Assembly: GCA_021776915.1 (NCBI GenBank)
Contig: JAIQZU010000082.1
Coordinates: 1 to 64,000 of the forward strand
Source of the DNA: Candidatus Scalindua sp.
GTDB taxonomy: Bacteria > Planctomycetota > Brocadiia > Brocadiales > Scalinduaceae
DNA: 64,000 bases
Reading direction: 5' to 3'
The notes beneath the pieces were generated by a model. That model had not been told where the DNA came from. It saw only the letters and a list, made by a program, of their open reading frames with translations, and did not search any database. Positions 896-53,849 of this stretch are shown piece after piece. The position numbers were made by a program, and so were the translations under genes. Each line of letters begins with the position of its first letter. Position 1 is the first letter of the stretch.

Positions 896-2266
896 TTATT
901 CCAAACGTTGTATACTATAATTAATCAAATCTTTGACATATTTAATATTGTGCACCCCATAGCTTCCATCTTTTACAATCAAATCATAATTATACCGGAT
1001 CCCATCAATCAGTGATTCCGGTACTCCCTGCAATCGTGATTCTATTAACAACTCCGATAACGAGTCTAACATCCCTGCAATATATTCCTTCTGCTCTGCC
1101 ATTGTTTTGTCGAATCCCTTCTCGTGGCAGGTATTACATATCTTTGGATCGATAGCCAGATCTTTGTCTTTGTGACATGCGGTGCAATTGACTGTAGCAA
1201 GATACATCGGGTCAGGACTTCTTTCTACTCCCCTGCCACCATTACCTGCATATAATTCTCTTTGCAACAAATATGGCTCTTTCTCTAAAATGAGTGTTTC
1301 GTCTTTCGCAGTAATAGTATCATCACCTGATATTGCAACCATGGCCATACCTGAAACCTTCTCAATGCCCTTATCTTTATTATCAATATCTCTCATAGGC
1401 AATATATTATTAATGTATTCATCTCCCCACTTATGGGAAAACCCACCATGACAAGGAGAGCATGGGACATTATGTTCTGCCACGTGGTCATTGTGCATTC
1501 TGTCTGCACCCTCATATTCCGCAGGAATCTTTGTATGGCAATAGTAGCAATTCTTCTTTTCTACATCGTTGCCCCTGTTGATAGTCTCAAAATGACAGCT
1601 TGTGCATTCTACTTTCAGTTCCTTCTCAAATTTTAAATGATCAAACTCCTTTTCATATATCATAACCTTTATCTGTACGTCCTTATGGCAGAGTGAACAT
1701 CCATCTACATTCTTTTTATCATTAGTAGTAAGTAAAGGGGTTTCTCCTTTTATGAAATGACAGACAAAACAAGCATCCTCATCTATACCAAAATGTCTTG
1801 TTTCTACCCCTTCCTCTACCTCTCTGCCCATATACGAATGGCATCCAATACAACGTAACTTAAGATTAGTAGGGAATTCTTTCAAGTGTGTTTCATGATT
1901 AAAAGAAAACACATCCTTGTATTTTGAGAAATCAGAGGTAAGTTTTTCGACAGGATGGCAATCGGTTTTTGTACAGTTACTATCCTCAATCTCAACAGAC
2001 AATGTCCTGCCGCTACCATCATGTGTGTGACAATTCAGAAAGTCTGTATTACAGGAAACCGTCTCTTTCCAGGTATTATAAGACGTCTGCATACTGTGAC
2101 ATCTTGCACAGAATTTTGGAGAGTCCGGTTTATGTGCAGCTATCTCAAACAACGTAATACAACATATTACAGACAGAATTGTCACTATGGACAGTATCTT
2201 GACGCTCTTTCTATCTCTTTTTCTGATATTCTCCAGCATAGTATGTGGTAGTGGGTATAACTGCAT
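896..2266 (-). CDS. Membrane-anchored multihaem c-type cytochrome (at least nine haems)
   Basis: The 456-residue protein has one N-terminal membrane helix (about residues 22-44) that probably anchors it facing the lumen or periplasm. Nine CXXCH sites are visible (CARCH, CIGCH, CFVCH, CSLCH, CTSCH, CYYCH, CSPCH, CTACH, CNTCH). There is also a CX4CH group (CTKTDCH) and a Cys-x6-Cys-His group near residues 70-80. The anchor followed closely by CARCH recalls NapC/NirT-type quinol-oxidising cytochromes, but the protein is much longer. The C-terminal 80 residues are haem-free and helical. It sits downstream of the pentahaem cytochrome and b6/IV genes, so it may carry electrons from that complex. 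The start could instead be the ATG at 2239; neither start has a clear Shine-Dalgarno. Confidence 0.88.
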   Translation of the reverse strand: MQLYPLPHTMLENIRKRDRKSVKILSIVTILSVICCITLFEIAAHKPDSPKFCARCHSMQTSYNTWKETVSCNTDFLNCHTHDGSGRTLSVEIEDSNCTKTDCHPVEKLTSDFSKYKDVFSFNHETHLKEFPTNLKLRCIGCHSYMGREVEEGVETRHFGIDEDACFVCHFIKGETPLLTTNDKKNVDGCSLCHKDVQIKVMIYEKEFDHLKFEKELKVECTSCHFETINRGNDVEKKNCYYCHTKIPAEYEGADRMHNDHVAEHNVPCSPCHGGFSHKWGDEYINNILPMRDIDNKDKGIEKVSGMAMVAISGDDTITAKDETLILEKEPYLLQRELYAGNGGRGVERSPDPMYLATVNCTACHKDKDLAIDPKICNTCHEKGFDKTMAEQKEYIAGMLDSLSELLIESRLQGVPESLIDGIRYNYDLIVKDGSYGVHNIKYVKDLINYSIQRLE

Positions 2267-2268
2267 CC

Positions 2269-2392
2269 AAGTTTGAAGTGACTAAAGTGACTAAAGTGAG
2301 CTAAAGTGCCTAAAGTTAAAAAAAAAGATTTGTTTTTTACCACAACTTTAGCTCACTTGAAACTTTAGGCACTTTTAACTTTTAATGACAAA
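2269..2392. repeat. Intergenic inverted-repeat element, family B copy 1
   Basis: Arms built from short units such as AAGTGAGCTAAAGTG and CTTTAGCTCACTT face each other across an A/T-rich centre. The left side also has tandem copies of a GACTAAAGT unit. Related elements lie at 35668-35775 and 36578-36698. There are no coding features; it looks like a dispersed non-autonomous palindromic repeat. Confidence 0.65.
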
Positions 2393-2496
2393 AAAACTTT
2401 CTAAAGCTTGTTCTCATGTAAATGGGGAAAAGAAGTTTTTACAAAGTAATAGTATATAGCGATCCCCGGACAAACTGCGCCGAGGACTTTACGCCC

Positions 2497-3582
2497 CTAC
2501 TGTGAACTCTGCGATGGACTCAATTCCAACTCTACCTTTGCAAGCAAAGTTTTCTTAGTTCTATTAAAATTCGTCCTGAAAAGAACGGCCTCTAACTCTT
2601 TCACACCATTCTCGCCATCTATATCAAACTCAAAACTATAAATCTTCTTATCTCCCGGTTTCAGTTGAGTGCCCATTTCAACAAACATACTCTCCTGTTT
2701 AGATTTGACTATCAGCCCAAAGTTATCCTTGAGATTGATTAACAAAAGAACCTCTCTATATCCGTATTTTCCGGTAGGGATTGAGTGGTTAACCTTAGTA
2801 TTCAGAATCTCCACGTTACCTTTTATCTGGTTTTTGTTGTCATTTAATTCAGTAAATGCCAATTCTATAAAGTCTTTATTACTTTCCAAGGCACTTAAAC
2901 TGGAAAAAGTATGTGCCTTCCCTTCCTTCTTTACATGTAATTTCTGCCACGGCTCATTCTGGATCAGTTTACGCCTGACGGCTGGCATATGGCAATCCTG
3001 GCATGTTTCATCATTACCGTTTCCCACAAACGTTAAATACTCTTCGTATGTATCAACATGACATTTACCGCAAAGCTCGCTCCCTTTATACAACTCTTCT
3101 TTTTTCTCTATAGGATGTGGAGAGATTCCCGCATGTGGGCCAGCGAGCGTGCAATCTACAGTAAGATGACAGCCATGACAATCAACTCCATCATTCAGAT
3201 TGTAATCCCTTGACGCTATTTCACCATTCTTTGGTTTAGACAAAGAGATTGCCGTTTTGTCAGGATCAACTTCCAATGATGTAAATATAGTTTCCGGCAC
3301 ATGACATCTTATGCAGAATTTAAATTCATAATTGTTAGTGGCGACTCTAAACTCTTCACTGGTGTAACTCTTCGAATGTGAAGACTCCACCCATTCATTG
3401 TAAATATCGACATGGCATTCACCGCATTTATGCGACCCTATAGAATCTTCTCCCCTCATAACGAGTTCGGGATGCAGGTTCTCGATTAATTTGCAGCCGG
3501 AAAATATGGCCATAATTGTAATTATAGCTACCATACCGAACACAAGTGGAAAGGGGTTTTTACACATGCGTTTATAAATCAT
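2497..3582 (-). CDS. Pentahaem c-type cytochrome lipoprotein (cytochrome c554-like)
   Basis: The protein has 361 residues. An N-terminal helix ends in a lipobox-like FSGC, so Cys30 is probably lipidated. Five CXXCH motifs follow: CGECH, CIRCH, CHGCH, CGKCH and CQDCH. The 'SHKCGECH..IYNEW..S.H' pattern is typical of the cytochrome c554/MtrA-like family. The C-terminal 150 residues lack haem sites and look like a beta-sandwich. Only two bases separate it from the upstream subunit-IV-like gene, which implies co-transcription and a role as electron acceptor or donor of the b6/IV complex. Confidence 0.88.
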   Translation of the reverse strand: MIYKRMCKNPFPLVFGMVAIITIMAIFSGCKLIENLHPELVMRGEDSIGSHKCGECHVDIYNEWVESSHSKSYTSEEFRVATNNYEFKFCIRCHVPETIFTSLEVDPDKTAISLSKPKNGEIASRDYNLNDGVDCHGCHLTVDCTLAGPHAGISPHPIEKKEELYKGSELCGKCHVDTYEEYLTFVGNGNDETCQDCHMPAVRRKLIQNEPWQKLHVKKEGKAHTFSSLSALESNKDFIELAFTELNDNKNQIKGNVEILNTKVNHSIPTGKYGYREVLLLINLKDNFGLIVKSKQESMFVEMGTQLKPGDKKIYSFEFDIDGENGVKELEAVLFRTNFNRTKKTLLAKVELELSPSQSSQ

Positions 3583-19359: not shown

Positions 19360-20943
19360 ATGGGGTATCTTTTAAGAGGTTTAAGAAGACCAAACATAAT
19401 ATGTTCTTTTTTGTTCATGTTATGCCTGCTGCTTTTTTGTACTAATATGGCGTGGGCAGGCGAGCATACAATCGCAAGCGACCCAACCGGCGAGCATACA
19501 TTTGCACTGGACTTCAGAGGCGTAGATATGTCAGAAAGCTTTGGATGGGTTTTGTTGACAGGTTTCACAATATTGTTTATGCAGGTAGGTTTCATATTTT
19601 TAGGCGGGCTCCTTCAGGCAAAAAATGTTTTGAGTTATATGACTCATTGTTTTCTCGCTACCACATTAGGAGCGCTTATATACTTTGTTGCAGGATTCGC
19701 ATTAATGTTTGGCGGGTTTGAATTTTTAGGAAAGCATCTGGGTGGAGGCAATGCATTCATTGGATGGAGCGGTTTTCTTTTATTGGGTGATTCTTATGAC
19801 GTAAGAACGATAATGATGTTCCTGTTCCAGGCGGTTATAGCAACATTCATAGGAAGCATAATTGCCGGGGCTGTTGCAGAAAGAATGAAACTAGGAGCTT
19901 ATGTCATTTCATTTTTCTTTATATACACAATTATATATCCACTATATGGCCACTGGGTATGGGGAGAAGGATGGTTGTGGAATCTGCCGTTTGGTTCAGG
20001 TGTAAGAGACTTCGCAGGCTCAGGAGTAGTCCATGCAATCGGAGGAACTCTGGCTTTTGTAGGCGCTCTCTTCCTGGGGCCAAGAATTGGCAAATTCAGT
20101 AAGGATGGTACACCGGGGTTCTTTCCCGGCCATAATGTAGGCTACATGGTAATTGGAACAGTACTCCTGGCATTTGGGTGGCTGGGTTATGACGCAGGAA
20201 GCACCCTTGCAGCAGGAGATTTACGCGCCTCAGTCGTAGCGGCTAATACATTTATTGCAGGAGCAATGGGAGCGGTTACAGTACTTTATTATTCATACCT
20301 GAAGACCGGTGCTGCGGATATAGGCGAGGCATGCAATGGATTCCTGGCCGGACTTGTTGCTATTTCCGCTCCATGTGCTTATGTGGCTCCGTGGGCTGCT
20401 GTTACAATTGGTTTATTGGGAGCAATAGTATATATGACAAACTTATGGTTTGTTGAAGAGAAACTAAAAGTAGACGACCCTCTTGGCGCTGTATCTGTAC
20501 ATGGTGCAAATGGCCTATGGGGATTACTTGCAATTGGTATTTTTGCTGATGGTTCGTATGGTGGAGTTTCCGGGCTGATAACAGGAAACGGTGGACAGTT
20601 ATTGTCACAATTTATTGCATGTATTGTCGCTCTGGCATGGGCTGGCGGCCTTGGCAGTCTGATGTTCTTTATACTTAAAAATACCATTGGAATAAGAGTG
20701 TCTGAAAGAGTAGAATCAGAGGGTCTAGACGTAAACATCCATGGTTCACCTTGTTATCGACTACAAACAGGGGCAGAAGCTCCTTTAGGCGCAGAAATCG
20801 AAGGAGCAGCGGAAGACACAGAAGGACAAAAAAACACTGAAATACTGGAAGCTGCATTTGCCAAAGATGCCAAAAGAGAGAAGATTTACTCAGAAAAACT
20901 TGGCATCTGGATAACGGCAAAGCCAAAAGAGACTGAAAAGTAA
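19360..20943 (+). CDS. amt: Ammonium transporter (Amt1) with signal peptide and long C-tail
   Basis: The 527-residue Amt family protein starts with a cleavable-looking signal (cut near AWA-GE, residue 33). The twin pore histidines are His225 ('GVVHAIGG') and His381 ('VSVHGANG'). About eleven helices are visible. After the usual PII-contact C-tail ('ERVESEGLDVNIHGSPCY') there is an extra charged tail of about 60 residues, absent from the other three Amts here. It imports or senses ammonium, the anammox substrate. It is followed by a PII gene, the usual amt-glnK pairing. Confidence 0.95.
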   Translation: MGYLLRGLRRPNIICSFLFMLCLLLFCTNMAWAGEHTIASDPTGEHTFALDFRGVDMSESFGWVLLTGFTILFMQVGFIFLGGLLQAKNVLSYMTHCFLATTLGALIYFVAGFALMFGGFEFLGKHLGGGNAFIGWSGFLLLGDSYDVRTIMMFLFQAVIATFIGSIIAGAVAERMKLGAYVISFFFIYTIIYPLYGHWVWGEGWLWNLPFGSGVRDFAGSGVVHAIGGTLAFVGALFLGPRIGKFSKDGTPGFFPGHNVGYMVIGTVLLAFGWLGYDAGSTLAAGDLRASVVAANTFIAGAMGAVTVLYYSYLKTGAADIGEACNGFLAGLVAISAPCAYVAPWAAVTIGLLGAIVYMTNLWFVEEKLKVDDPLGAVSVHGANGLWGLLAIGIFADGSYGGVSGLITGNGGQLLSQFIACIVALAWAGGLGSLMFFILKNTIGIRVSERVESEGLDVNIHGSPCYRLQTGAEAPLGAEIEGAAEDTEGQKNTEILEAAFAKDAKREKIYSEKLGIWITAKPKETEK

Positions 20944-21043
20944 ATCTTAATGTATTTTAGTATTTAAAGTTTCTCAATTTGAATATAATTGTGTTATATT
21001 ATTTATTAAAAACATAGGCATATTACCAAAGGAGGAGTCATTT

Positions 21044-21382
21044 ATGAAAAAGATAGAAGCTATTATTCGTCCTGAAAAATTTGATATTATCAAAGATGCT
21101 CTGACAGAGAAAGGCTATGGAGGAATGTCTGTTACAGAGATAAAGGGACATGGTAATCAGAAGGGTGTAAGTGAGGTTTGGAGGGGAAAGAGGTATAAAG
21201 TGGATCTGCTTCCAAAGATAAAGGTTGAACTAGCTGTTGCAGACGAAGTCTGTGACGAGGTAGTTCAAACTATTATTTCAGAAGGTCAAACCGGTAGTAT
21301 TGGAGATGGAAAGATATTCGTTTCCGAGCTTTCAAACGTCTATAGAATAAGAACAGCAGAGCAAGGTGATTCTGCTATTTAA
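21044..21382 (+). CDS. glnK: PII nitrogen regulatory protein (1)
   Basis: The 112-residue PII protein has a T-loop 'GHGNQKGVSEVWRGKRYKVD' with the uridylylation-type Tyr51; residue 46 is Trp where GlnB has Tyr. The C-terminal signature '[11 protein letters not shown]' is present. PII trimers bind ATP/ADP and 2-oxoglutarate and block Amt pores. It lies about 100 bp after amt1, with a GGAGGAG ribosome site, and is probably co-transcribed and paired with it. Confidence 0.96.
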   Translation: MKKIEAIIRPEKFDIIKDALTEKGYGGMSVTEIKGHGNQKGVSEVWRGKRYKVDLLPKIKVELAVADEVCDEVVQTIISEGQTGSIGDGKIFVSELSNVYRIRTAEQGDSAI

Positions 21383-21412
21383 GACGTTATACGTTGTCAG
21401 CTCACAATAATC

Positions 21413-21465
21413 AATCAGCGGCCAAACGGTTGAGTAAAAGTTTACACAACCTCTGGCCGCTGATT
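21413..21465 (+). terminator. Long hairpin after the PII gene
   Basis: AATCAGCGGCCA (21413-21424) pairs perfectly with TGGCCGCTGATT (21454-21465). An inner stem (GGTTG/CAACC and AGTAAA/TTTAC) continues it, and TTCCTT follows. It is a likely terminator or processing hairpin that separates amt1-glnK from the next amt. Confidence 0.75.
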
Positions 21466-21555
21466 TTCCTTCTATGTTCGCTTAGTTGTCATTAAATTAC
21501 CCATCACAACAACCAGGATATTTAGTAATTTTCAAATCCTTAAAATAAAAAATCA

Positions 21556-22938
21556 ATGAAAAATCAATACTTAGCCTGGATAGTATTTTCAATTATTATA
21601 GCTTTTGTTTTATTCTCTGCCTTTAATACTACTGAAGCTGGTGATCAGAAAGACAGCTTCACAATGTACTCAGAGACCAGAGACATAGAAGGGCTAAAGA
21701 TAGCTGTTAACCTTGCGTGGACGTTATTGTGTGGATTTCTTATCTTTAACATGCAGGCAGGATTTGCATTTCTGGGTGCGGGGTTCCTGCAGAAGAAAAA
21801 TACATTAAATTACTTAACGATGAGTTTTATGGATTTCTGTGTTGGCGCCCTTATTTTCTGGGCGTTTGGCTTCGCATTAATGTACGGCGGCTCATCTCTC
21901 GCCTCTGGTCTGGAGAAGGGAAATGCCTTTATTGGTTTTAGTGGATTCTTTCTCGCCGGTAATGCTTATGATTTTTCTACTTCATCGGTATGGTTATTTC
22001 ATATGATGTTTGCTGTCGCTACCTGTACTATTATAGCCGGTGCTGTTGCCGAACGCTTTAAGTTTCATGTTCATCTGATATACGCCATGATACTTTGTGG
22101 GTTCTTGTATCCGGTTTTCGGCCACTGGGTATGGGGTGGAGGCTGGCTTGCACACCTGCCATTTGGATCAGGAATGAAAGATTTTGCCGGAGGAGGTGTG
22201 GTTCATGGTATGGGCGGTGTGATGGCATTTGTAGGTGCATGGATGGTTGGCCCGAGGTTTGGTAAATACAACCCTGATGGTACTCCAAACATCATTCACG
22301 GACACAATCTTTCTTATATAGCACTTGGAACACTCTTTTTACTGTTTGGCTGGTTCGGATTTAATGCCGGAAGCACTTTAGCTGCTACTGATTTAAGGAT
22401 TTCAATAATTGCAACTAATATGTTCCTTTCTGCCATCACTGGAGCGATAACTGTTTTGTACATTTCATATTTTAAAACCAGGAAATCAGACACTGTCATG
22501 ACATGCAATGGCGCTCTGGCTGGTTGCGTGGCTATAACTGCATCCGCCGCTTATGTACCACATTGGGCTGCCGTGATTATTGGCATAACTGCCGGTCTAA
22601 TATTAAAGGCTTCCCTGCATATAATGGAATTCAAACTACGTATAGACGATCCTGTCGGAGCTATATCCGTTCACGGCGCAAACGGGCTATGGAGTCTGCT
22701 TACCGTAGGGATCTTTGCCGATGGTTCATATTCAGAAGTAAAAGGATTAATAACAGGTTCTGGATGGCAACTTCTGGCACAGTTTATTGGCCTCGTTACT
22801 CTTCTAGCCTGGTCGCTGGGAACTGGTTATTTAATCTTTTTCCTTTTAAAGAAAACAATAGGATTAAGAGTACCTGTTAAAGAAGAAAATACCGGACTTG
22901 ATTTATATGAACACGGACTTAATTGCTATTCTGGCTGA
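21556..22938 (+). CDS. amt: Ammonium transporter (Amt2)
   Basis: The 460-residue Amt has an N-terminal signal-like helix (residues 5-22). The twin histidines are His217 ('GVVHGMGG') and His373 ('ISVHGANG'). The C-tail ends at '...GLDLYEHGLNCYSG', the normal PII-contact length. It is closest in motif pattern to Amt1 and Amt4 rather than Amt3. No good Shine-Dalgarno precedes the ATG. It has no PII gene directly after it; a kinase-like gene follows about 230 bp downstream on the same strand. Confidence 0.94.
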   Translation: MKNQYLAWIVFSIIIAFVLFSAFNTTEAGDQKDSFTMYSETRDIEGLKIAVNLAWTLLCGFLIFNMQAGFAFLGAGFLQKKNTLNYLTMSFMDFCVGALIFWAFGFALMYGGSSLASGLEKGNAFIGFSGFFLAGNAYDFSTSSVWLFHMMFAVATCTIIAGAVAERFKFHVHLIYAMILCGFLYPVFGHWVWGGGWLAHLPFGSGMKDFAGGGVVHGMGGVMAFVGAWMVGPRFGKYNPDGTPNIIHGHNLSYIALGTLFLLFGWFGFNAGSTLAATDLRISIIATNMFLSAITGAITVLYISYFKTRKSDTVMTCNGALAGCVAITASAAYVPHWAAVIIGITAGLILKASLHIMEFKLRIDDPVGAISVHGANGLWSLLTVGIFADGSYSEVKGLITGSGWQLLAQFIGLVTLLAWSLGTGYLIFFLLKKTIGLRVPVKEENTGLDLYEHGLNCYSG

Positions 22939-23170
22939 TAATCTTTACTGCTTTATACTTTATGTACATTTCCTACATCAGCTTTTCCACTTCTTGTTTT
23001 ATCTAGTACTATACCCTGCCCTGGATGATATAGCAGAATGTACTCTTTATGAAAGTCTCTAAATTGAGGATGCATGTAAGGTTTCTTGATGAATATAATA
23101 GTAGATGATGTAATTTATAACTTTTATGGTTTTAATTTATAGACTAACAGAATAATTTAAGAGGTACAAT

Positions 23171-23980
23171 ATGTATAATTTAGGAAAATACCAATTTGAG
23201 CGTTTTAAATACAGGCCGGGACACAGAGCAAACTACGCAGTGCTGTCTGAACCAGGAAGCGGAGAATGGGGAATCAAGTACTCACCCACTTACAGCTACT
23301 TCAGTGAATACGATGTGCTGAAGAACTTTTCTCATCCACAGATTCCAAAAAGATATGATTCAGGGAGAGAAGAATTGTTCGAAAACGATAAACTAGTATT
23401 AAAAGAACATTTCATTGTCTTAGAGCACTTTGAAGGTGAGGACATTGTAGAATATTACAAGCAGAAGGGCTTGCCAGATTCTGATGAGATAGAAAATATT
23501 GTTAAATACTTTGCAAGCATCTCCGAGCCGTTACAATATCTCCATTCAAAAGGATATGCTCATACCGATATTAAACCGGGCCATCTTATTCTGAATCCCA
23601 GCACAGGAACAGTTGGCCTGATTGATTTAGAACTATCCATAAAAGCAGGAGAGCTTATAAAGGGGTTAACTATAGAATATGCGTCACCGGAACAAAAACA
23701 GATGAATGACTTATTGAAAGATGTCACAGACAGAAAAGGTGAAAAGGCGGTGTTAAGGCAGGTGCAGATTGACGGGAGAGCCGATTTATACACGATTGGA
23801 TTAATATTGTATGAAGTGCTGACAGGCAAATTACGGACAAAAACTAATCAGCCGCCAATCGAGTTTAATAATGCTATACCGCCGAAATTAAACGAAATAG
23901 CCATGGCTCTCATTGAAGAAGACCCATCAAAGAGAATGCCTTCGGCAGAGATACTTAAAGATGAATTAAAGAACGTGTGA
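23171..23980 (+). CDS. Ser/Thr protein kinase-like protein, atypical active site (copy 2)
   Basis: The 269-residue protein is a paralogue of the one at 18363-19175. It has the same 'HFIVL-H' hinge, 'YLHSK-Y-H-DIKPGHL' catalytic loop (Asp133, Lys135, His138 for Asn), Asp152-Leu-Glu for DFG, and 'YASPEQK'. The ATP-anchoring Lys is probably Lys36. No transmembrane or sensor domain is present. It sits between Amt2 and Amt3, so both copies border amt genes. ATP hydrolysis and targets are uncertain; Amt or PII proteins are obvious candidates. Confidence 0.85.
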   Translation: MYNLGKYQFERFKYRPGHRANYAVLSEPGSGEWGIKYSPTYSYFSEYDVLKNFSHPQIPKRYDSGREELFENDKLVLKEHFIVLEHFEGEDIVEYYKQKGLPDSDEIENIVKYFASISEPLQYLHSKGYAHTDIKPGHLILNPSTGTVGLIDLELSIKAGELIKGLTIEYASPEQKQMNDLLKDVTDRKGEKAVLRQVQIDGRADLYTIGLILYEVLTGKLRTKTNQPPIEFNNAIPPKLNEIAMALIEEDPSKRMPSAEILKDELKNV

Positions 23981-24084
23981 TACAGGGAATGGTTATTGAT
24001 AAAACAAATTCTGTTATTAATAACTGAGAAAACAATGCCTTTATAACTTACAGTAGAAATTGAAGGATATTTCAAACAAAAATA

Positions 24085-24118
24085 AGGCGTCGTCTATTTC
24101 TTAAAATAGACGACGCCT
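24085..24118. terminator. Bidirectional terminator between convergent genes
   Basis: A perfect 15-bp inverted repeat (AGGCGTCGTCTATTT and its complement) with a CTTA loop lies between the kinase-like gene (+) and amt3 (-). Flanking sequence is A/T-rich. Confidence 0.85.
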
Positions 24119-24204
24119 CTAAACTACACCATAAAACTCGTCTTAACTAAAAACTCATGTAAGCCCGAATCAAAGGTTTACAAAGTGTTTTAGCCAGAAA
24201 CCTC

Positions 24205-25539
24205 TTATCTCCTCAGTGTACTTGTTGCTTCTAATTGCAGATGATAGGCAATCTCTCCATGTTGCGTAATATCAAGTCCCTTTTCTTCATCTGCCTCAGT
24301 CGTCCTTAACCCTACCGTGTACTTAACAATTAATGCTATAATAACACAAACGGCAACGGTAAATCCCCATGTAGCCAGAATGCCTACGCACTGCTTACCC
24401 AATTGTGTGAGACCTTCAGCGCCCCATCCAATGAATAAACCATCAACACCATCCGGCCCCATTACCATTTTAGTACAATAAAGCCCTGCAGCAAATGTGC
24501 CGATAGTGCCCCCAATAGCATGTACTCCAACAACATCCAGTGCATCATCAAAGCCAAAAAGAGGTTTTAGCTTTGTCACAGCAAAGTAGCAGCCTACACC
24601 AGCCATAATTCCAATCTGCAAGGCACCTAGAGGTCCGACAAAACCAGAGGCAGGTGTAATAGTCGCAAGCCCTGCAATTGCTCCGGTAAGCGCACCCAGA
24701 AATGTCGGCTTCCCTGTCTCTAGCCACTCACATACTATCCATACAAAAGCAGCAGTAGCTGCAGCGGTATTTGTCACAGTAAATGCAAAAGCGGCCCTCC
24801 CATCAGCAGCCAAAGCACTGCCACCATTGAAACCAAACCAGCCAAACCATAGTAAACCTGTTCCCAGGCATACCATTGGGAGATTACAAGGGGGTGTTAT
24901 ATTTTGTCTCTTACGCGACCCCAACATTACTGCAAGTGTAAGCGCACCGGCTCCACAACATACGTGTACAACCAGTCCCCCGGCAAAATCCAAAACTCCC
25001 CATTTGTACATCCAGCCGGTTTCACACCATTGCCAATGACAAATAGGATCGTACACGAAAGTAGCGAAAAGAGGAACAAAGAGCAACACGGCACTAAACT
25101 TCATCCGCCCCTCAACAGCCCCCAATACCAGAGCAGCTGTGATAACTGCAAACATACACTGAAAGATCATGAACGTGTATTCCGGTATTGTTCCTGAGAG
25201 TGAGTCGGGTGTTATCCCCATTAAACCAACTTTAGAAAGACCTCCAATAAACCAGTTTCCGCCACTAAAAGACAAACTATACCCCCATAAAATCCACTGA
25301 ACACTTACAATGGAAATGCACATAAAACACATCATGAGCATATTAACTATATTTCTTACAGAACATAAACCACCATAAAATAAACAGAGACCGGGTGTCA
25401 TAAGAAGAACAAGGGCTGCAGATGTAAGTATCCATGCATTATCAGCTTTATCAAGAGCACTCTCATCTGCCCATAACGTTGAAGATGCGACCACCATAAA
25501 GACCGATATTAAGATTGTTATATAACCAATTTTTCTCAT
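24205..25539 (-). CDS. amt: Ammonium transporter (Amt3, AmtB clade)
   Basis: The 444-residue Amt has a signal-like N-terminus (ends near STLWADE) and the classic AmtB pattern. The first pore His lies in 'LVVHVCCGAGAL', and the second in 'VVGVHAIGGTIGTFAAG'. The C-tail 'TTEADEEKGLDITQHGE' is the conserved PII-contact segment. Its motifs differ from the three other Amts here, pointing to a separate subfamily. It follows a PII gene by 76 bp and has AAGGAGG before the ATG. Confidence 0.95.
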   Translation of the reverse strand: MRKIGYITILISVFMVVASSTLWADESALDKADNAWILTSAALVLLMTPGLCLFYGGLCSVRNIVNMLMMCFMCISIVSVQWILWGYSLSFSGGNWFIGGLSKVGLMGITPDSLSGTIPEYTFMIFQCMFAVITAALVLGAVEGRMKFSAVLLFVPLFATFVYDPICHWQWCETGWMYKWGVLDFAGGLVVHVCCGAGALTLAVMLGSRKRQNITPPCNLPMVCLGTGLLWFGWFGFNGGSALAADGRAAFAFTVTNTAAATAAFVWIVCEWLETGKPTFLGALTGAIAGLATITPASGFVGPLGALQIGIMAGVGCYFAVTKLKPLFGFDDALDVVGVHAIGGTIGTFAAGLYCTKMVMGPDGVDGLFIGWGAEGLTQLGKQCVGILATWGFTVAVCVIIALIVKYTVGLRTTEADEEKGLDITQHGEIAYHLQLEATSTLRR

Positions 25540-25615
25540 TCGTTTAACCTCCTTTAAAGAATAGCCCTCTATATATCCTTGTTTTAGAAATCAAGCTATA
25601 TAAAGACATATTATT

Positions 25616-25996
<381 letters not shown>

Positions 25997-26038
25997 CTAA
26001 TGTATAAAATTATAAAGTGTCCTCTAATCTTTCAGTTT

Positions 26039-26054
26039 TGTATGCGAGCATACA
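26039..26054. promoter_or_regulatory. Operator-like palindrome upstream of glnK(2)-amt3
   Basis: TGTATGC-GA-GCATACA is a perfect 7-bp inverted repeat with a 2-bp centre, 85 bp upstream of the PII start codon. Size and position suit a dimeric regulator. Confidence 0.45.
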
Positions 26055-26705
26055 CATAGTTATACCCACCACATTGTGCAAACACATTATTTTATCAATA
26101 GAAATTATTCTGCTTATACATCGCATCTTACAAAACTTTTCAAATTTAAAACGTACCGTGTTTAAAAAGAATTTCATTCATGACCCAAGTTATGCAATAT
26201 ATATACCATAACATGCAATAACAATAACTGAACATGCATAATCGCTGTGGCAGCCGACACTTGCAATACCCACATTATTTGCATAGTGTTAATTCACCAA
26301 TTCATAATGTGGTGTATATCTGCCAATATGAAGATATCGCATACTCAGTCTTATATTGAAATATGGATTGCATAAAACTAAAGTTTTTCTAAATACAAGC
26401 TCCCCCGACAGAGCCGGATATCTGCTGATTTCTGAATTGGCCTGAAAGTGCGAATCCGCCTCTAGTGTGGTTTTACCGGGCCTTCCAGGGTGAAAAATAT
26501 CACTGTATTGCTGTATTTAAAGACCTGTTCAAGTTAGCAGTGGACGTGTGCTTTATATCTCAAAAATATATAGCATAGCATCACTGTTATCTATTTTTTT
26601 TTAGCTTTTTAAAAGGTGTGAGTCCGGTGCTTTTAGAGAATTATCTGAGAAATCACCGAAGCAATATATGAACAATCAACCATGAATAGCCTGGAGTAAT
26701 CTGTT

Positions 26706-26736
26706 GTAGTCGCCCGCCACACTGACGGGCGACTAC
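26706..26736. terminator. Hairpin downstream of amt4
   Basis: GTAGTCGCCCG and its perfect complement flank a 9-base loop, about 100 bp after the amt4 stop codon. No T-run follows, so it may be a dispersed palindromic repeat serving as a terminator. Confidence 0.5.
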
Positions 26737-26832
26737 CTACCCTACTATTCAATTGGGTACAGATAGTTTAATGTTTACAAGAGATTACTTTACTACGCTT
26801 TCTGATCATGCTACGTAGCAAACGTCTACCCC

Positions 26833-28224
26833 TTATGATTGTTCAGGGTAACATGCTGTACCGTGAATGTGCTGATCAAGACCCTCTTTCTCTATATCAT
26901 CAGATACCCTCATCTTCGAATGACTATTACCTTTGCCTCCGATCAATTTGAACAACACAAATGCCATTCCTCCAGCCCATACAAATGCAACTACGGCTGC
27001 AATAGACTGTGAGGCTAACTGTCCGTAATGTCCGGTTATTACACCATAAACTCCGCCATACGAACCATCAGCAAAGATACCCAGGGCAATCAACCCCCAG
27101 AAGCCATTGGCACCATGAACTGAGCATGCACCAAGTGGATCGTCAACTTTAAATTTATTTCCAATAATCCAGAAAGAAATCAGATATAATACGGCACCCA
27201 GGAATCCTATTAGAACTGCTGCCCAGGGTGCGACATATGCACATGGTGCAGAGATCGCAACAAAACCAGCCAGAGCACCATTACATGCTTCACCAACATC
27301 AGTATGGCCAGATAACAAGTAAGTAAGAAAGAGAACCGTCACAGCTCCAATTGAACCTGCAAGGGCTGTATTCGCAGCTACTACAGACATCCTCAAATCG
27401 CCTGCTGCCAATGTACTTCCGGCATCATAAAACAACCATCCAAATGCAAGAATTATCGTTCCGATAATCATATATCCAACATTATGACCCGGTATGGAAT
27501 TAGATGAACCATCCTCATTATACTTACCGGCTCTTGGTCCTAGAAAACATGCACCAACGAAGCCGATAGTTCCGCCAATTGCATGAACCACCCCTGACCC
27601 CGCAAAGTCTCTCACTCCGGCACCATAAGGCAGATTCCACAGCCATCCTTCTCCCCATACCCAATGTCCATATACAGGATAAATAAAGATATATACGAAG
27701 ATAAACATAAGAACATAAGAGCAGAGTTTCATCCTCTCAGCGACAGCGCCGGCAATTATACTACCGATAAATGTTGCTACACATGCCTGAAAAATAAACA
27801 ATAATATTGTCTTGACGTCATATGCATCTCCCAGAAGCATAAAACCGCTCAGGCCCATAAAAGCATTACCTTTTCCCACATGATGTCCCAGAAATTCAAA
27901 TCCACCAAACATCACTCCAAAGCCAACAAACCAGTAGATAATAACGCCGAGTGTTGTGGCAATAAAGCAGTGTGTCATGTAGCTGAGCATATTCTTAGCT
28001 GGTAATAAACCTCCTAATAACGCAAACCCTACCTGCATGAACCAAATCACAAAGCCACATACTAAAATCCACGTAAAGTTATTGGACATGTTAATACCCC
28101 TGATGTCCAACGCAAAAGTCTTGTCACCTGTGGGATCTGCCGCCTCTGAAACGCCAAACATCAGGAATACAGCAGCAACTGCAACCAACAGAAGCCACAT
28201 TACATTTTTTGGTTTAAAATGCAT
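26833..28224 (-). CDS. amt: Ammonium transporter (Amt4)
   Basis: The 463-residue Amt has a signal peptide (cut near SEA-AD). The twin histidines lie in 'GSGVVHAIGGTIGF' and 'ACSVHGANGFWG'. It is very close to Amt1 along its length, including 'EFLGHHVGKGNAF' and 'GDLRMSVVAANT', but lacks Amt1's extra charged tail. The C-tail ends '...EKEGLDQHIHGTACYPEQS'. Strong ribosome site (GGAAGGAGGG). It has no adjacent PII gene and stands alone between two long non-coding stretches. Confidence 0.95.
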   Translation of the reverse strand: MHFKPKNVMWLLLVAVAAVFLMFGVSEAADPTGDKTFALDIRGINMSNNFTWILVCGFVIWFMQVGFALLGGLLPAKNMLSYMTHCFIATTLGVIIYWFVGFGVMFGGFEFLGHHVGKGNAFMGLSGFMLLGDAYDVKTILLFIFQACVATFIGSIIAGAVAERMKLCSYVLMFIFVYIFIYPVYGHWVWGEGWLWNLPYGAGVRDFAGSGVVHAIGGTIGFVGACFLGPRAGKYNEDGSSNSIPGHNVGYMIIGTIILAFGWLFYDAGSTLAAGDLRMSVVAANTALAGSIGAVTVLFLTYLLSGHTDVGEACNGALAGFVAISAPCAYVAPWAAVLIGFLGAVLYLISFWIIGNKFKVDDPLGACSVHGANGFWGLIALGIFADGSYGGVYGVITGHYGQLASQSIAAVVAFVWAGGMAFVLFKLIGGKGNSHSKMRVSDDIEKEGLDQHIHGTACYPEQS

Positions 28225-49805: not shown

Positions 49806-50720
49806 TCAAATCGCAAATCGTGAATCCATTAACACCCCATATCTCAAACCCCTTGAGCTTATACTGCAGTTTGGAAATCTCAATTTCTCCATCGTTCTCC
49901 ACATAATCATCGCCCCTGCCAGTAAGACGTCTGCACGTTTTGGTTCGATACCAACCTGCTCTCGTCTTTCAGCAACTGTCATGGACTTCAGGTCTGCAAC
50001 CATTTGTTGCAAATTCTCCTTCGACAACTGAACTTTCTCTACTTTGGCAGCATCAAACACATCTTGCTCCAGATGCCATGAAGCGAGTGTAGTTGCAGTA
50101 CCCGCCACAGCCAGCATTTGCATATCTGCCGGAATAGAATTTCGCCAGTCCACAAGTTCATCAAGCTTATTATCTATTTTATCAAGGCAGACCACATATT
50201 CTTCATCGGCTACTGGATCAGACTTCAGATATCTTTCCGTAAAACGTACAGACCCTAAATCCACACTTCGATCCTCTTCTGCCGCCACAAACTCGGTACT
50301 TCCGCCTCCTATATCCACCACAGTATAGTTAGACGGGGCCATGCCGGGAAGCAGAGAACCCAAGAAACTCAAACGCGCTTCGTCCTTCCCGGAAAGAACT
50401 GTGAACCTGAAGCCGTAATCTGATTCAACCTTATCAAAAAAAACTACACCGTTTGAGGCATCCCTTGCCTGACTGGTAGCCACGCATACCACATCGCCAG
50501 GCGATATACCGGCTTCAGAGATTATCTCTTTATATTCGGCAAGGCATGTAAGTGTTCTTTCCATAGCCTTCGGCTGCAGACTTCTGGTTTTGTCCACACC
50601 TTCACCCAGACGAATAATTCGGGCATAATCGCCCATCACCTTCTTTATCTGTCCAGACTCAACCTTCGCCAGAAGCATAAGACAGGTATTAGTCCCTAAA
50701 TCAATTGACGCTCTCAGCAT
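49806..50720 (-). CDS. Ppx/GppA exopolyphosphatase family protein
   Basis: The 304-residue protein has the ASKHA-type phosphate motifs 'SIDLGTNTCLMLLA' and 'VVDIGGGSTEFV'. It is the short form with only the two catalytic domains. It may degrade polyphosphate or pppGpp, and cannot be told apart further. Confidence 0.9.
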   Translation of the reverse strand: MLRASIDLGTNTCLMLLAKVESGQIKKVMGDYARIIRLGEGVDKTRSLQPKAMERTLTCLAEYKEIISEAGISPGDVVCVATSQARDASNGVVFFDKVESDYGFRFTVLSGKDEARLSFLGSLLPGMAPSNYTVVDIGGGSTEFVAAEEDRSVDLGSVRFTERYLKSDPVADEEYVVCLDKIDNKLDELVDWRNSIPADMQMLAVAGTATTLASWHLEQDVFDAAKVEKVQLSKENLQQMVADLKSMTVAERREQVGIEPKRADVLLAGAMIMWRTMEKLRFPNCSISSRGLRYGVLMDSRFAI

Positions 50721-51001
50721 TTAATTTCCTTTTATTCCCTATAATAGCCCTAGCTCATCCAGAAGTATAACTTTTGTCAGAAACCAACATCATTTTGTCT
50801 CCTAATAGAATTTGCTATACATTATTATCAGAGACTATGCATATACTATATATTCCAAAAGTATTTTCCAGAGCTTTTTATGTATATTCTCTGATTCTAT
50901 TCTGAAATAGTTCATTTTATTACGCATGTTACATAGCCGTCCCATAGCAAACTTTACCTGTTGACATTGTGTCTTCAAAAATTTTGAGTGGCAATATTAT
51001 A

Positions 51002-51018
51002 TTTGACATTCTGTCAAA
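51002..51018. promoter_or_regulatory. Operator-like palindrome
   Basis: TTTGACA-TTC-TGTCAAA is a perfect 7-bp inverted repeat with a 3-bp centre. It lies about 130 bp upstream of the sigma-54 site, a typical distance for an activator. Confidence 0.45.
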
Positions 51019-51135
51019 CGTGTGTCGTGTTTAGGTTGTATTGAAAATAAACATATAATTAATAATTTTTATATCTATATATATTTAGCTGTACTTACAG
51101 AAAACAAGATTATGTTTTTTGTGCCTTTTTGATTT

Positions 51136-51150
51136 TGGCACTATAGTTGC
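51136..51150 (+). promoter_or_regulatory. Sigma-54 promoter
   Basis: TGGCAC-N5-TTGC matches the -24/-12 consensus at all conserved positions (GG and GC ten bases apart). Transcription would start near 51162. No protein frame begins within 150 bases, so it drives either a short RNA or a long yceI leader. Confidence 0.75.
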
Positions 51151-51161
51151 GAAAATCAAAA

Positions 51162-51287
51162 TACTTCGTTGTACTTGATTTTTATTAATGTGTATTATTT
51201 TACCAAAAATCGCTTTTACATATATGCTCCAAACACGTAGTCTTTCTATGATTCAATCATTCCGTCATAGTGACGGCTTTTTATTTT
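51162..51287 (+). ncRNA. Putative short transcript or attenuator leader
   Basis: The stretch runs from the predicted sigma-54 start to the end of an intrinsic terminator, giving about 125 bases. No protein of useful length is seen in it. It could be a small RNA or a leader whose terminator is conditionally bypassed into the yceI-like gene 30 bp further on. Confidence 0.5.
51262..51287 (+). terminator. Intrinsic terminator just upstream of the yceI-like gene
   Basis: CCGTCA-TAG-TGACGG forms a perfect 6-bp stem, followed by CTTTTTATTTT. The position, 30 bp before the start codon and after the sigma-54 promoter, suggests attenuation. Confidence 0.75.
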
Positions 51288-51316
51288 AAAAAAGAAGAAA
51301 CTGAGGAGGAAAGATC

Positions 51317-51874
51317 ATGTCTTTAAAAACTGGTACGTATAGTTTGAATGGCAATTCCGGTAAGGTGTCTGCTTATACTTTTAAGTCAGGTTTACTTAGT
51401 AAAATAGCACACGATTTATTAATTGATATAAATGATTTCAAAGTTGATGTAGACGTGCCTGAGGGTGGTTTTGCTTCCGGAAGCCTGAAACTGGAAATAC
51501 AGACTAATTCTCTAAAAGTAGATTGTGCAATGAAAGATGGAGAACGCAATCCGGGCACATTAAAAGAAAAGGATATAGCAGATATTGAAGCAGATATGGC
51601 CAAGAAGGTTTTACATCCGGACAAATATTCTACTGCCAGTTTCAGTTCCAAGTCTATTCAGGAAAATGGTGACAGTTGTCATGTAAGCGGAGATTTAAGT
51701 CTGCACGGAGTTACCAAGCCTATAGATTTTGATATAGATACAAGCAGTGGCGGTTTAAAAGGAAGATTTACCATAGTCCAGACAGACTACGGAATTAAAC
51801 CTTTCAAGGCTATGATGGGGACTTTGAAGATAAAAGACGAGATGGATATCGGCTTTGATTTGTCTTTAGGCTGA
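51317..51874 (+). CDS. YceI family lipid-binding-like protein (cytoplasmic form)
   Basis: The 185-residue protein is a YceI-type beta-barrel ('HDLLIDINDFKVDVDV', 'LHPDKYSTASF', 'LSLHGVTKPIDF'). YceI barrels bind polyisoprenoid lipids. Unlike typical members it has no signal peptide, so it should be cytoplasmic. A GAGGAGG ribosome site precedes the ATG. It is convergent with the next gene (13 bp gap). Confidence 0.9.
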   Translation: MSLKTGTYSLNGNSGKVSAYTFKSGLLSKIAHDLLIDINDFKVDVDVPEGGFASGSLKLEIQTNSLKVDCAMKDGERNPGTLKEKDIADIEADMAKKVLHPDKYSTASFSSKSIQENGDSCHVSGDLSLHGVTKPIDFDIDTSSGGLKGRFTIVQTDYGIKPFKAMMGTLKIKDEMDIGFDLSLG

Positions 51875-53345: not shown

Positions 53346-53849
53346 TTACAGCAAATTCTTCAATACAGGCTTAAGTACCAACTTTATAGCCGACAATGAA
53401 ATAATTCCAACAAAAACAACAACAATCGTCAAGAAACTCCACTCATTAAGAATGAGTCCCAATGCTAAACCCGCTGCGGGAGAATGTTCCGTATCCGTAA
53501 TTACCATCACAAACATCGCCAATCCTACAGACATTGCACCAAACACTACATGCGGGGACTCATGAATAAATGATGTCCACGACATTAATGACCATAAAGA
53601 TAAATAGTGACACAGACAACCCGCAGCTATGCCGACTATATATCCACCTATCATAAACCTTGGTCTTGATATCTGTGCCTCAGGCATTGTAAATGTTAAA
53701 AATGCACTCGACCCCAAAGCGGCAATTATGACCGCATTCGTCACAACATCAAGCACCATCAGCACAATAAAAACTGATATAGTTGCAAGCGCGCATTGAG
53801 AAATATATATTGTTATGTTTTTCCTGAAGTTTTCATCCAATATTCGCAT
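53346..53849 (-). CDS. HPP family membrane protein
   Basis: The 167-residue protein has four or five helices. The HPP motif appears as 'HSPAAGLALGLIL' (Ser in place of the second Pro). The family includes plastid nitrite/nitrate-type transporters, so nitrite handling is possible in an anammox-like cell, but this is inference. It stands about 95 bp downstream of the ABC-2 permease pair. Confidence 0.75.
   Translation of the reverse strand: MRILDENFRKNITIYISQCALATISVFIVLMVLDVVTNAVIIAALGSSAFLTFTMPEAQISRPRFMIGGYIVGIAAGCLCHYLSLWSLMSWTSFIHESPHVVFGAMSVGLAMFVMVITDTEHSPAAGLALGLILNEWSFLTIVVVFVGIISLSAIKLVLKPVLKNLL

Follow-up and report, generated by a model that had tools for sequence, protein, structure and literature searches.

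The yceI-family gene of the window (the whole 64,000-nt stretch of DNA that was analysed) appears to share a sigma-54 regulon with the main nitrite-handling genes of the same marine anammox bacterium, which points to one two-component switch; this is a larger finding than the first-pass annotation of the stretch had described. The probable explanation as a whole, on sequence comparison, is a regulon of the family Scalinduaceae that would be driven by the NtrC-type regulator encoded beside nxr and that yceI would have entered through the duplicated promoter of a cytochrome gene.

Genomes and locus

The closest relatives of the yceI product are found in Ca. Scalindua arabica (90%) and in assemblies of related Brocadiales, which places the window in Candidatus Scalindua (anammox). 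The comparison covered the window's own genome (G000) together with the rest of its family, here called Scalinduaceae (17 genomes, G000–G016), and 42 genomes of other families within Brocadiales (G017–G058). The features of the locus are as follows:

49806–50720, minus strand: ppx/gppA phosphatase gene, divergent, context only (PF02541, E=1.2e-50)
50953–51156, plus strand: promoter module, duplicated from a 957-aa multihaem cytochrome gene (80% identity to the copy on contig C6 in this genome; promoter tree)
50961–50975, plus strand: predicted upstream activating site 1, TTGACATTGTGTCTT, an imperfect dyad (position kept in relatives and in other regulon promoters)
51002–51018, plus strand: predicted upstream activating site 2, the exact 17-bp palindrome TTTGACATTCTGTCAAA (site 1 lies 42 bp away)
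51091–51109, plus strand: conserved block GTACTTACAGAAAACAAGA, situated between the predicted enhancer and the promoter (aligned yceI, cytochrome and bc-complex promoters)
51136–51150, plus strand: sigma-54 −24/−12 promoter TGGCACTATAGTTGC (TGGCAC-TATAG-TTGC; sequence and comparison), predicted +1 at about 51162
51255–51300, plus strand: relic part of the leader, homologous to the start of the cytochrome gene (ribosome-binding site and initial codons; leader alignments)
51262–51276, plus strand: hairpin CCGTCA-TAG-TGACGG, 6-bp stem, −6.5 kcal/mol, a putative terminator, then a good T tract, CTTTTTATTTT, at 51278–51287
51303–51309, plus strand: yceI ribosome-binding site GAGGAGG (sequence)
51317–51874, plus strand: yceI-family gene, 185 aa (PF04264, E=1.7e-17)

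The product scores above the cut-off of the YceI profile PF04264 (64.6 against 23.7 bits) and, judged by eye, has no obvious signal peptide at its N-terminus. The solved relatives 1y0g and 7bwl align with residues 98–140 only. Elsewhere in the window, long membrane-protein genes alternate with 112-aa genes (19360–28224), and by eye these look like ammonium transporters and PII regulators.

The promoter and its paired dyads

The −24 GG and −12 GC elements lie at standard spacing at 51136–51150, exactly where the first-pass annotation had placed a full TGGCAC-N5-TTGC consensus. Judged alone this match is not significant (three matches with at most one mismatch against 1.9 expected), but the locus stands far above chance because of a second dyad and because the whole module recurs in this genome and in relatives. 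The annotation had seen a single 17-bp palindrome and suggested that it may bind the enhancer protein; it is the second of two dyads (TTGACATTNTGTCAA), which lie 42 bp apart, at 50961 (spanning 50961–50973) and at 51003. The tandem palindromic sites are thus helically phased (spacing 40–42 bp) and situated about 120 bp 5' of the promoter. Concerning the conserved block at 51091–51109, a bend or a site for an accessory protein is our guess. The recurrence of paired dyads strongly supports the proposed enhancer role, and comparative genomics likewise gives strong support to the predicted control of yceI by sigma-54.

Distribution of the regulon

The pattern GACANNNTGTC-N28..34-GACANNNTGTC was searched in all genomes (G000–G058), with the reversed pattern as the control. 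Paired dyads are present in 16 of the 17 Scalinduaceae and in none of the 42 other Brocadiales genomes; the reversed pattern has no match in any genome. Single dyad cores occur genome-wide at the control level (53 against 49), so the signal resides in the phased pair. Spacings of 40, 41 or 42 bp are found exclusively, though 39–45 were allowed. An element of the form TGGNA-N6-TTGC lies 100–130 bp from 52 of the 53 distinct pairs, always on one side and never on both, where about one of 110 orientations would be expected to carry it by chance; many of these pairs are orthologous and not independent, the independent target families numbering about 9–11. The sole exception is located at a contig end.

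The window's own genome contains exactly five pairs, which precede nxrCB(A), a FocA/NirC nitrite channel gene (followed by an HPP-family gene), a carboxypeptidase-regulatory-like/Rieske/cytochrome b operon (the bc operon), the 957-aa multihaem cytochrome gene and yceI. Further targets, seen in relatives, are nirS (Cytochrom_D1, E=3.5e-133) and SLAC1. The target families are nxrC, FocA/NirC, Rieske, yceI, the carboxypeptidase-like/Rieske operon, the cytochrome, NirS, SLAC1, HPP and two that are unassigned. This gene content strongly supports a predicted regulon for nitrite/nitrate respiration, for which we infer the signal. The first-pass annotation had linked alternative-sigma control to an isoprenoid-binding protein; the sigma-54 part of that link is strongly supported, and, with nitrite/nitrate respiration and transport as the co-regulated functions, the isoprenoid half is less informative.

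Two more genes of the same genome (L118, 2838–3665; L119, 3173–5590) are preceded by one good dyad and a TGGTATCACGATTGC promoter. One is a cytochrome c gene that lies before a hydrazine-dehydrogenase-like octahaem gene and the other an NfnB/GltA-like gene; both are probable further members of the regulon. A TM_HPP-family gene, of a candidate nitrite transporter type, is found near yceI (window 53346–53849); the window shows no paired dyads for it. A 2026 study reports nitrite-dependent induction of the Scalindua cco genes by an 'unresolved regulatory mechanism' (PMC13253579). A link from the regulon to these nitrite-induced cbb3 oxidase genes was considered and is unsupported: among the genes of haem-copper oxidase type that were found in the window's own genome, not one has paired dyads or lies near a dyad-linked promoter.

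Origin of the yceI promoter

In a DNA search, the segment 50953–51156, which ends just beyond the −12 element, recurs on contig C6 in front of the 957-aa multihaem cytochrome gene, and more copies are found in relatives; another type precedes the carboxypeptidase-regulatory-like/Rieske/cytochrome b operon. The aligned copies share two dyads (TTGACATTNTGTC) 42 bp apart, then TGGCAY-N5-TTGC. The leaders of yceI and of the cytochrome gene align further, through the ribosome-binding site and start (GTTGAGGGCTTTTTTATTATGAAAAAAGAAGAAG versus GTGACGGCTTTTTATTTTAAAAAAGAAGAAAC), and the yceI promoter is evidently a duplicate of that of the cytochrome gene, copied together with the gene's ribosome-binding site and start codon. 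In the promoter tree, the yceI promoters of G000, G001, G002, G003 and G005 nest among the cytochrome promoters, and those of G013 and G014 group with nxr. The gene order in G013, which belongs to another genus, is regulator, paired dyads, promoter, yceI, nxrC and nxrB; in G014 it is regulator, promoter and yceI, up to the contig end. In these two related genera yceI is therefore the first gene behind the dyad promoter, with nxrC next in one of them. Genomes G004, G008–G010 and G012 (a third clade), as well as G011, contain yceI without a dyad promoter, and membership has therefore been lost or gained several times. Taken together, the promoter tree and the gene orders indicate that yceI is a member of the regulon by independent routes.

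Some further arrangements were observed. In G013, a decayed regulator–yceI segment with several stop codons is found on contig C24 (about 1901–3159, L240), and the intact copy is on C44. In G011 (L059 on contig C41, L067 on contig C10), a yceI-type promoter beside ppx drives the cytochrome gene, and yceI sits behind a bc/octahaem operon; the ppx–cytochrome arrangement would be either a recombination between promoter copies or a chimaeric contig.

The leader and its hairpin

The hairpin at 51262, its T tract ending at 51287 and the yceI ATG at 51317 are all where the first-pass annotation had located them. The hairpin overlies the relic translation start. Among the five yceI leaders of this promoter type it is found in three (G000, −6.5 kcal/mol; G001, −4.7; G003, −4.7); it is missing from those of G002 and G005, which keep the promoter, the gene and the old ATG, and it is not formed in five homologous cytochrome leaders. 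The third stem pair is G-C in G000, A-T in G001 and G-T in G003, and the hairpin was gained relative to the cytochrome leaders. Selection on it may operate in the G000/G001/G003 clade, for which three sequences prove little. Based on these comparisons the hairpin appears to be weak and recently evolved, having arisen on the relic in three close relatives only.

The whole leader folds no better than shuffled sequences (z = −0.37 and −0.28), and on these z-scores a structured leader or a riboswitch was rejected; no alternative fold that could act as an antiterminator was seen in it, and the Rfam scan gave no match above the gathering score, its one sub-threshold match being a chance snoRNA. A comparison of the yceI leaders in relatives that keep the promoter revealed no conserved structured leader with a terminator. 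The local scan found seven terminator-like sites against 2.8 expected; in the window such sites are not enriched at gene ends (0.54/kb after stops versus 0.43/kb inside genes). The regulon leaders contain eight terminator-like hairpins against 2.6 in shuffles, five of the eight being orthologous copies from two genes. The FocA/NirC leaders of G008 and G009 have a strong terminator-like hairpin and a long T tract about 40 nt past the sigma-54 start (37–57 nt after the predicted start in L126, minus strand, and 37–61 nt in L152), with arms that have changed and still pair; attenuation of the nitrite channel gene in these two genomes is possible. For the yceI leader, a dampening or end-forming role of the hairpin is possible, and that of a general attenuator is not supported.

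The candidate activator

An NtrC-type response regulator and a histidine kinase are encoded directly 5' of the nxr promoter, in the window's own genome (L195) as in many relatives:

Contig C27, L195 8306–9739: candidate response regulator (Pfam: receiver, Sigma54_activat and Fis-type HTH, HTH_8)

The adjoining kinase contains a PilS-like region of six transmembrane segments and PAS, HisKA and HATPase domains. The GAFTGA motif is seen in the regulator ortholog of G009 (85% identical). The regulator has orthologs in 15 of the 17 Scalinduaceae, and a further genome of the family contains fragments of it at contig ends; among the 42 genomes outside the family a single ortholog is found (62% identity). 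This distribution roughly matches that of the dyads. G003 has the pairs and no regulator ortholog (the genome is 82% complete), and G015 has the regulator and no strict pair. The regulator scores below the NtrC equivalog cut-off (TIGR01818, 425 against 559 bits). It reaches none of the NCBIfam thresholds for AtoC, NtrC or ZraR and stays far below that of the NorR model (308 against 476 bits). There is one rpoN gene in the window's own genome (contig C80, PF04552, E=1.2e-57). The nxr-linked kinase–regulator pair is the likely activator of the regulon, and its assignment is the weakest step because the genome encodes about 15 sigma-54 activators.

Proposed mechanism and alternatives

In the mechanism that we propose, the phosphorylated form of an NtrC-type response regulator, in all likelihood the nxr-linked one with its PilS/PAS-type kinase, would bind the two dyads, which lie four helical turns apart, and contact the sigma-54 polymerase about 120 bp downstream. 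The activating signal would be nitrite or a related nitrogen oxide. Transcription would start near 51162 and reach yceI after a leader of about 155 nt. The gene would have joined the regulon by a duplication that set the promoter and initial codons of the co-regulated multihaem cytochrome gene in front of it. On the leftover translation start the hairpin (51262) would have evolved, and it may trim or dampen the transcript; in relatives the promoter would function in its absence.

The alternative that deserves most weight, though we consider it rather unlikely, keeps the regulon and assigns it to another of the many paralogous sigma-54 activators, for example the ortholog of the one beside yceI in G004 and G010: a different NtrC-type regulator does adjoin yceI and a FocA-like gene in G010, and G004 has a similar regulator, yet yceI itself lacks dyads in both genomes, and among the regulators only the nxr-linked one was checked and tracks the dyads across genomes. 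The first-pass annotation had predicted a sigma-54 RNA of about 125 nt or an attenuated leader. It is improbable that the main product is such an RNA, or a regulated attenuator, with its end at the 51262–51276 hairpin. The hairpin and T tract exist, the stem is kept in G000, G001 and G003, and the regulon leaders exceed shuffles in terminator-like hairpins (8 versus 2.6), but the stem is short and weak, the z-scores are near −0.3, G002 and G005 lack it (leaving three of five leaders), terminator-like sites are not enriched after genes in the window, Rfam gives only the chance match and no antiterminator was seen.

The remaining two readings concern the dyads and the repeated segment themselves. 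Palindromes resembling TTGAC-GTCAA are used by some CRP/FNR-family nitrogen-oxide regulators, and this likeness could suggest that the dyads are sites of a regulator of CRP/FNR type or of a repressor, with TGG-TTGC incidental; the sigma-54 element at a fixed distance after 52 of 53 pairs, against about one expected, makes this very improbable. Scarcely credible is a 200-bp mobile repeat or assembly artefact: the G011 cytochrome gene joined to a yceI-type promoter beside ppx could be a chimaeric contig, but the orthologous arrangement is found in several independent assemblies, and the nxr, FocA and bc promoters share the functional sites alone and not the full sequence.

Returning to the nxr-linked regulon, a wider reading, tentative and on balance doubtful, is that one two-component system sensing nitrite or a nitrogen oxide governs all nitrite handling of marine anammox bacteria, with uptake, NirS, NXR and the bc complexes, through one sigma-54 enhancer code; yceI, ancestrally part of the nxr operon, would be an unrecognised accessory of this machinery, kept in the regulon by capturing a co-regulated cytochrome promoter, and the hairpin on the leftover start would tune its dose.

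Implications and relation to known systems

The enhancer motif, the target list and the candidate kinase–regulator pair make the control of core catabolism directly testable in anammox bacteria, which are responsible for a large part of the nitrogen lost from the sea. The regulon also provides a specific context for yceI, which has had no role in this metabolism, and its promoter illustrates, at the level of sequence, how a gene can stay in a regulon through duplication of the promoter of another member.

Among known systems it comes closest to the NtrC-family two-component/sigma-54 regulons of the NtrB–NtrC, ZraS–ZraR and PilS–PilR type, with which it shares the receiver, AAA+ sigma-54 and Fis-type HTH domains, the adjacent kinase, paired palindromic enhancers and a −24/−12 promoter. 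The NtrC site differs from the GACA-N3-TGTC dyad, and the NtrC regulon serves nitrogen assimilation, whereas the gene set described here serves nitrite/nitrate respiration. NorR likewise activates nitrogen-oxide genes together with sigma-54, at several short dyads. Its site has the core GT-N7-AC, and its GAF domain senses NO with no kinase involved; the present regulator, in contrast, has a receiver domain and a kinase, and the half-sites are in opposite order.

A sigma-54 regulon of anammox bacteria is described in none of the papers found in an open-access full-text library. In Kuenenia, the sigma-54 regulator kuste2857 lies beside the electron-transfer cluster of hydrazine synthesis (PMC12053348); a sigma-54 regulator is linked there to core anammox genes, as it is here, although the neighbourhood differs and the Brocadiaceae have neither paired dyads nor a close regulator ortholog. 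In Nitrospira moscoviensis, sigma-54-dependent and NifA-like regulators adjoin nxrAB, and the passages concerned describe no binding motif or wider regulon (PMC6606698). According to those passages, Nitrospira moscoviensis resembles Scalindua, by position alone, in having sigma-54 activators next to the nitrite oxidoreductase genes (PMC6606698).
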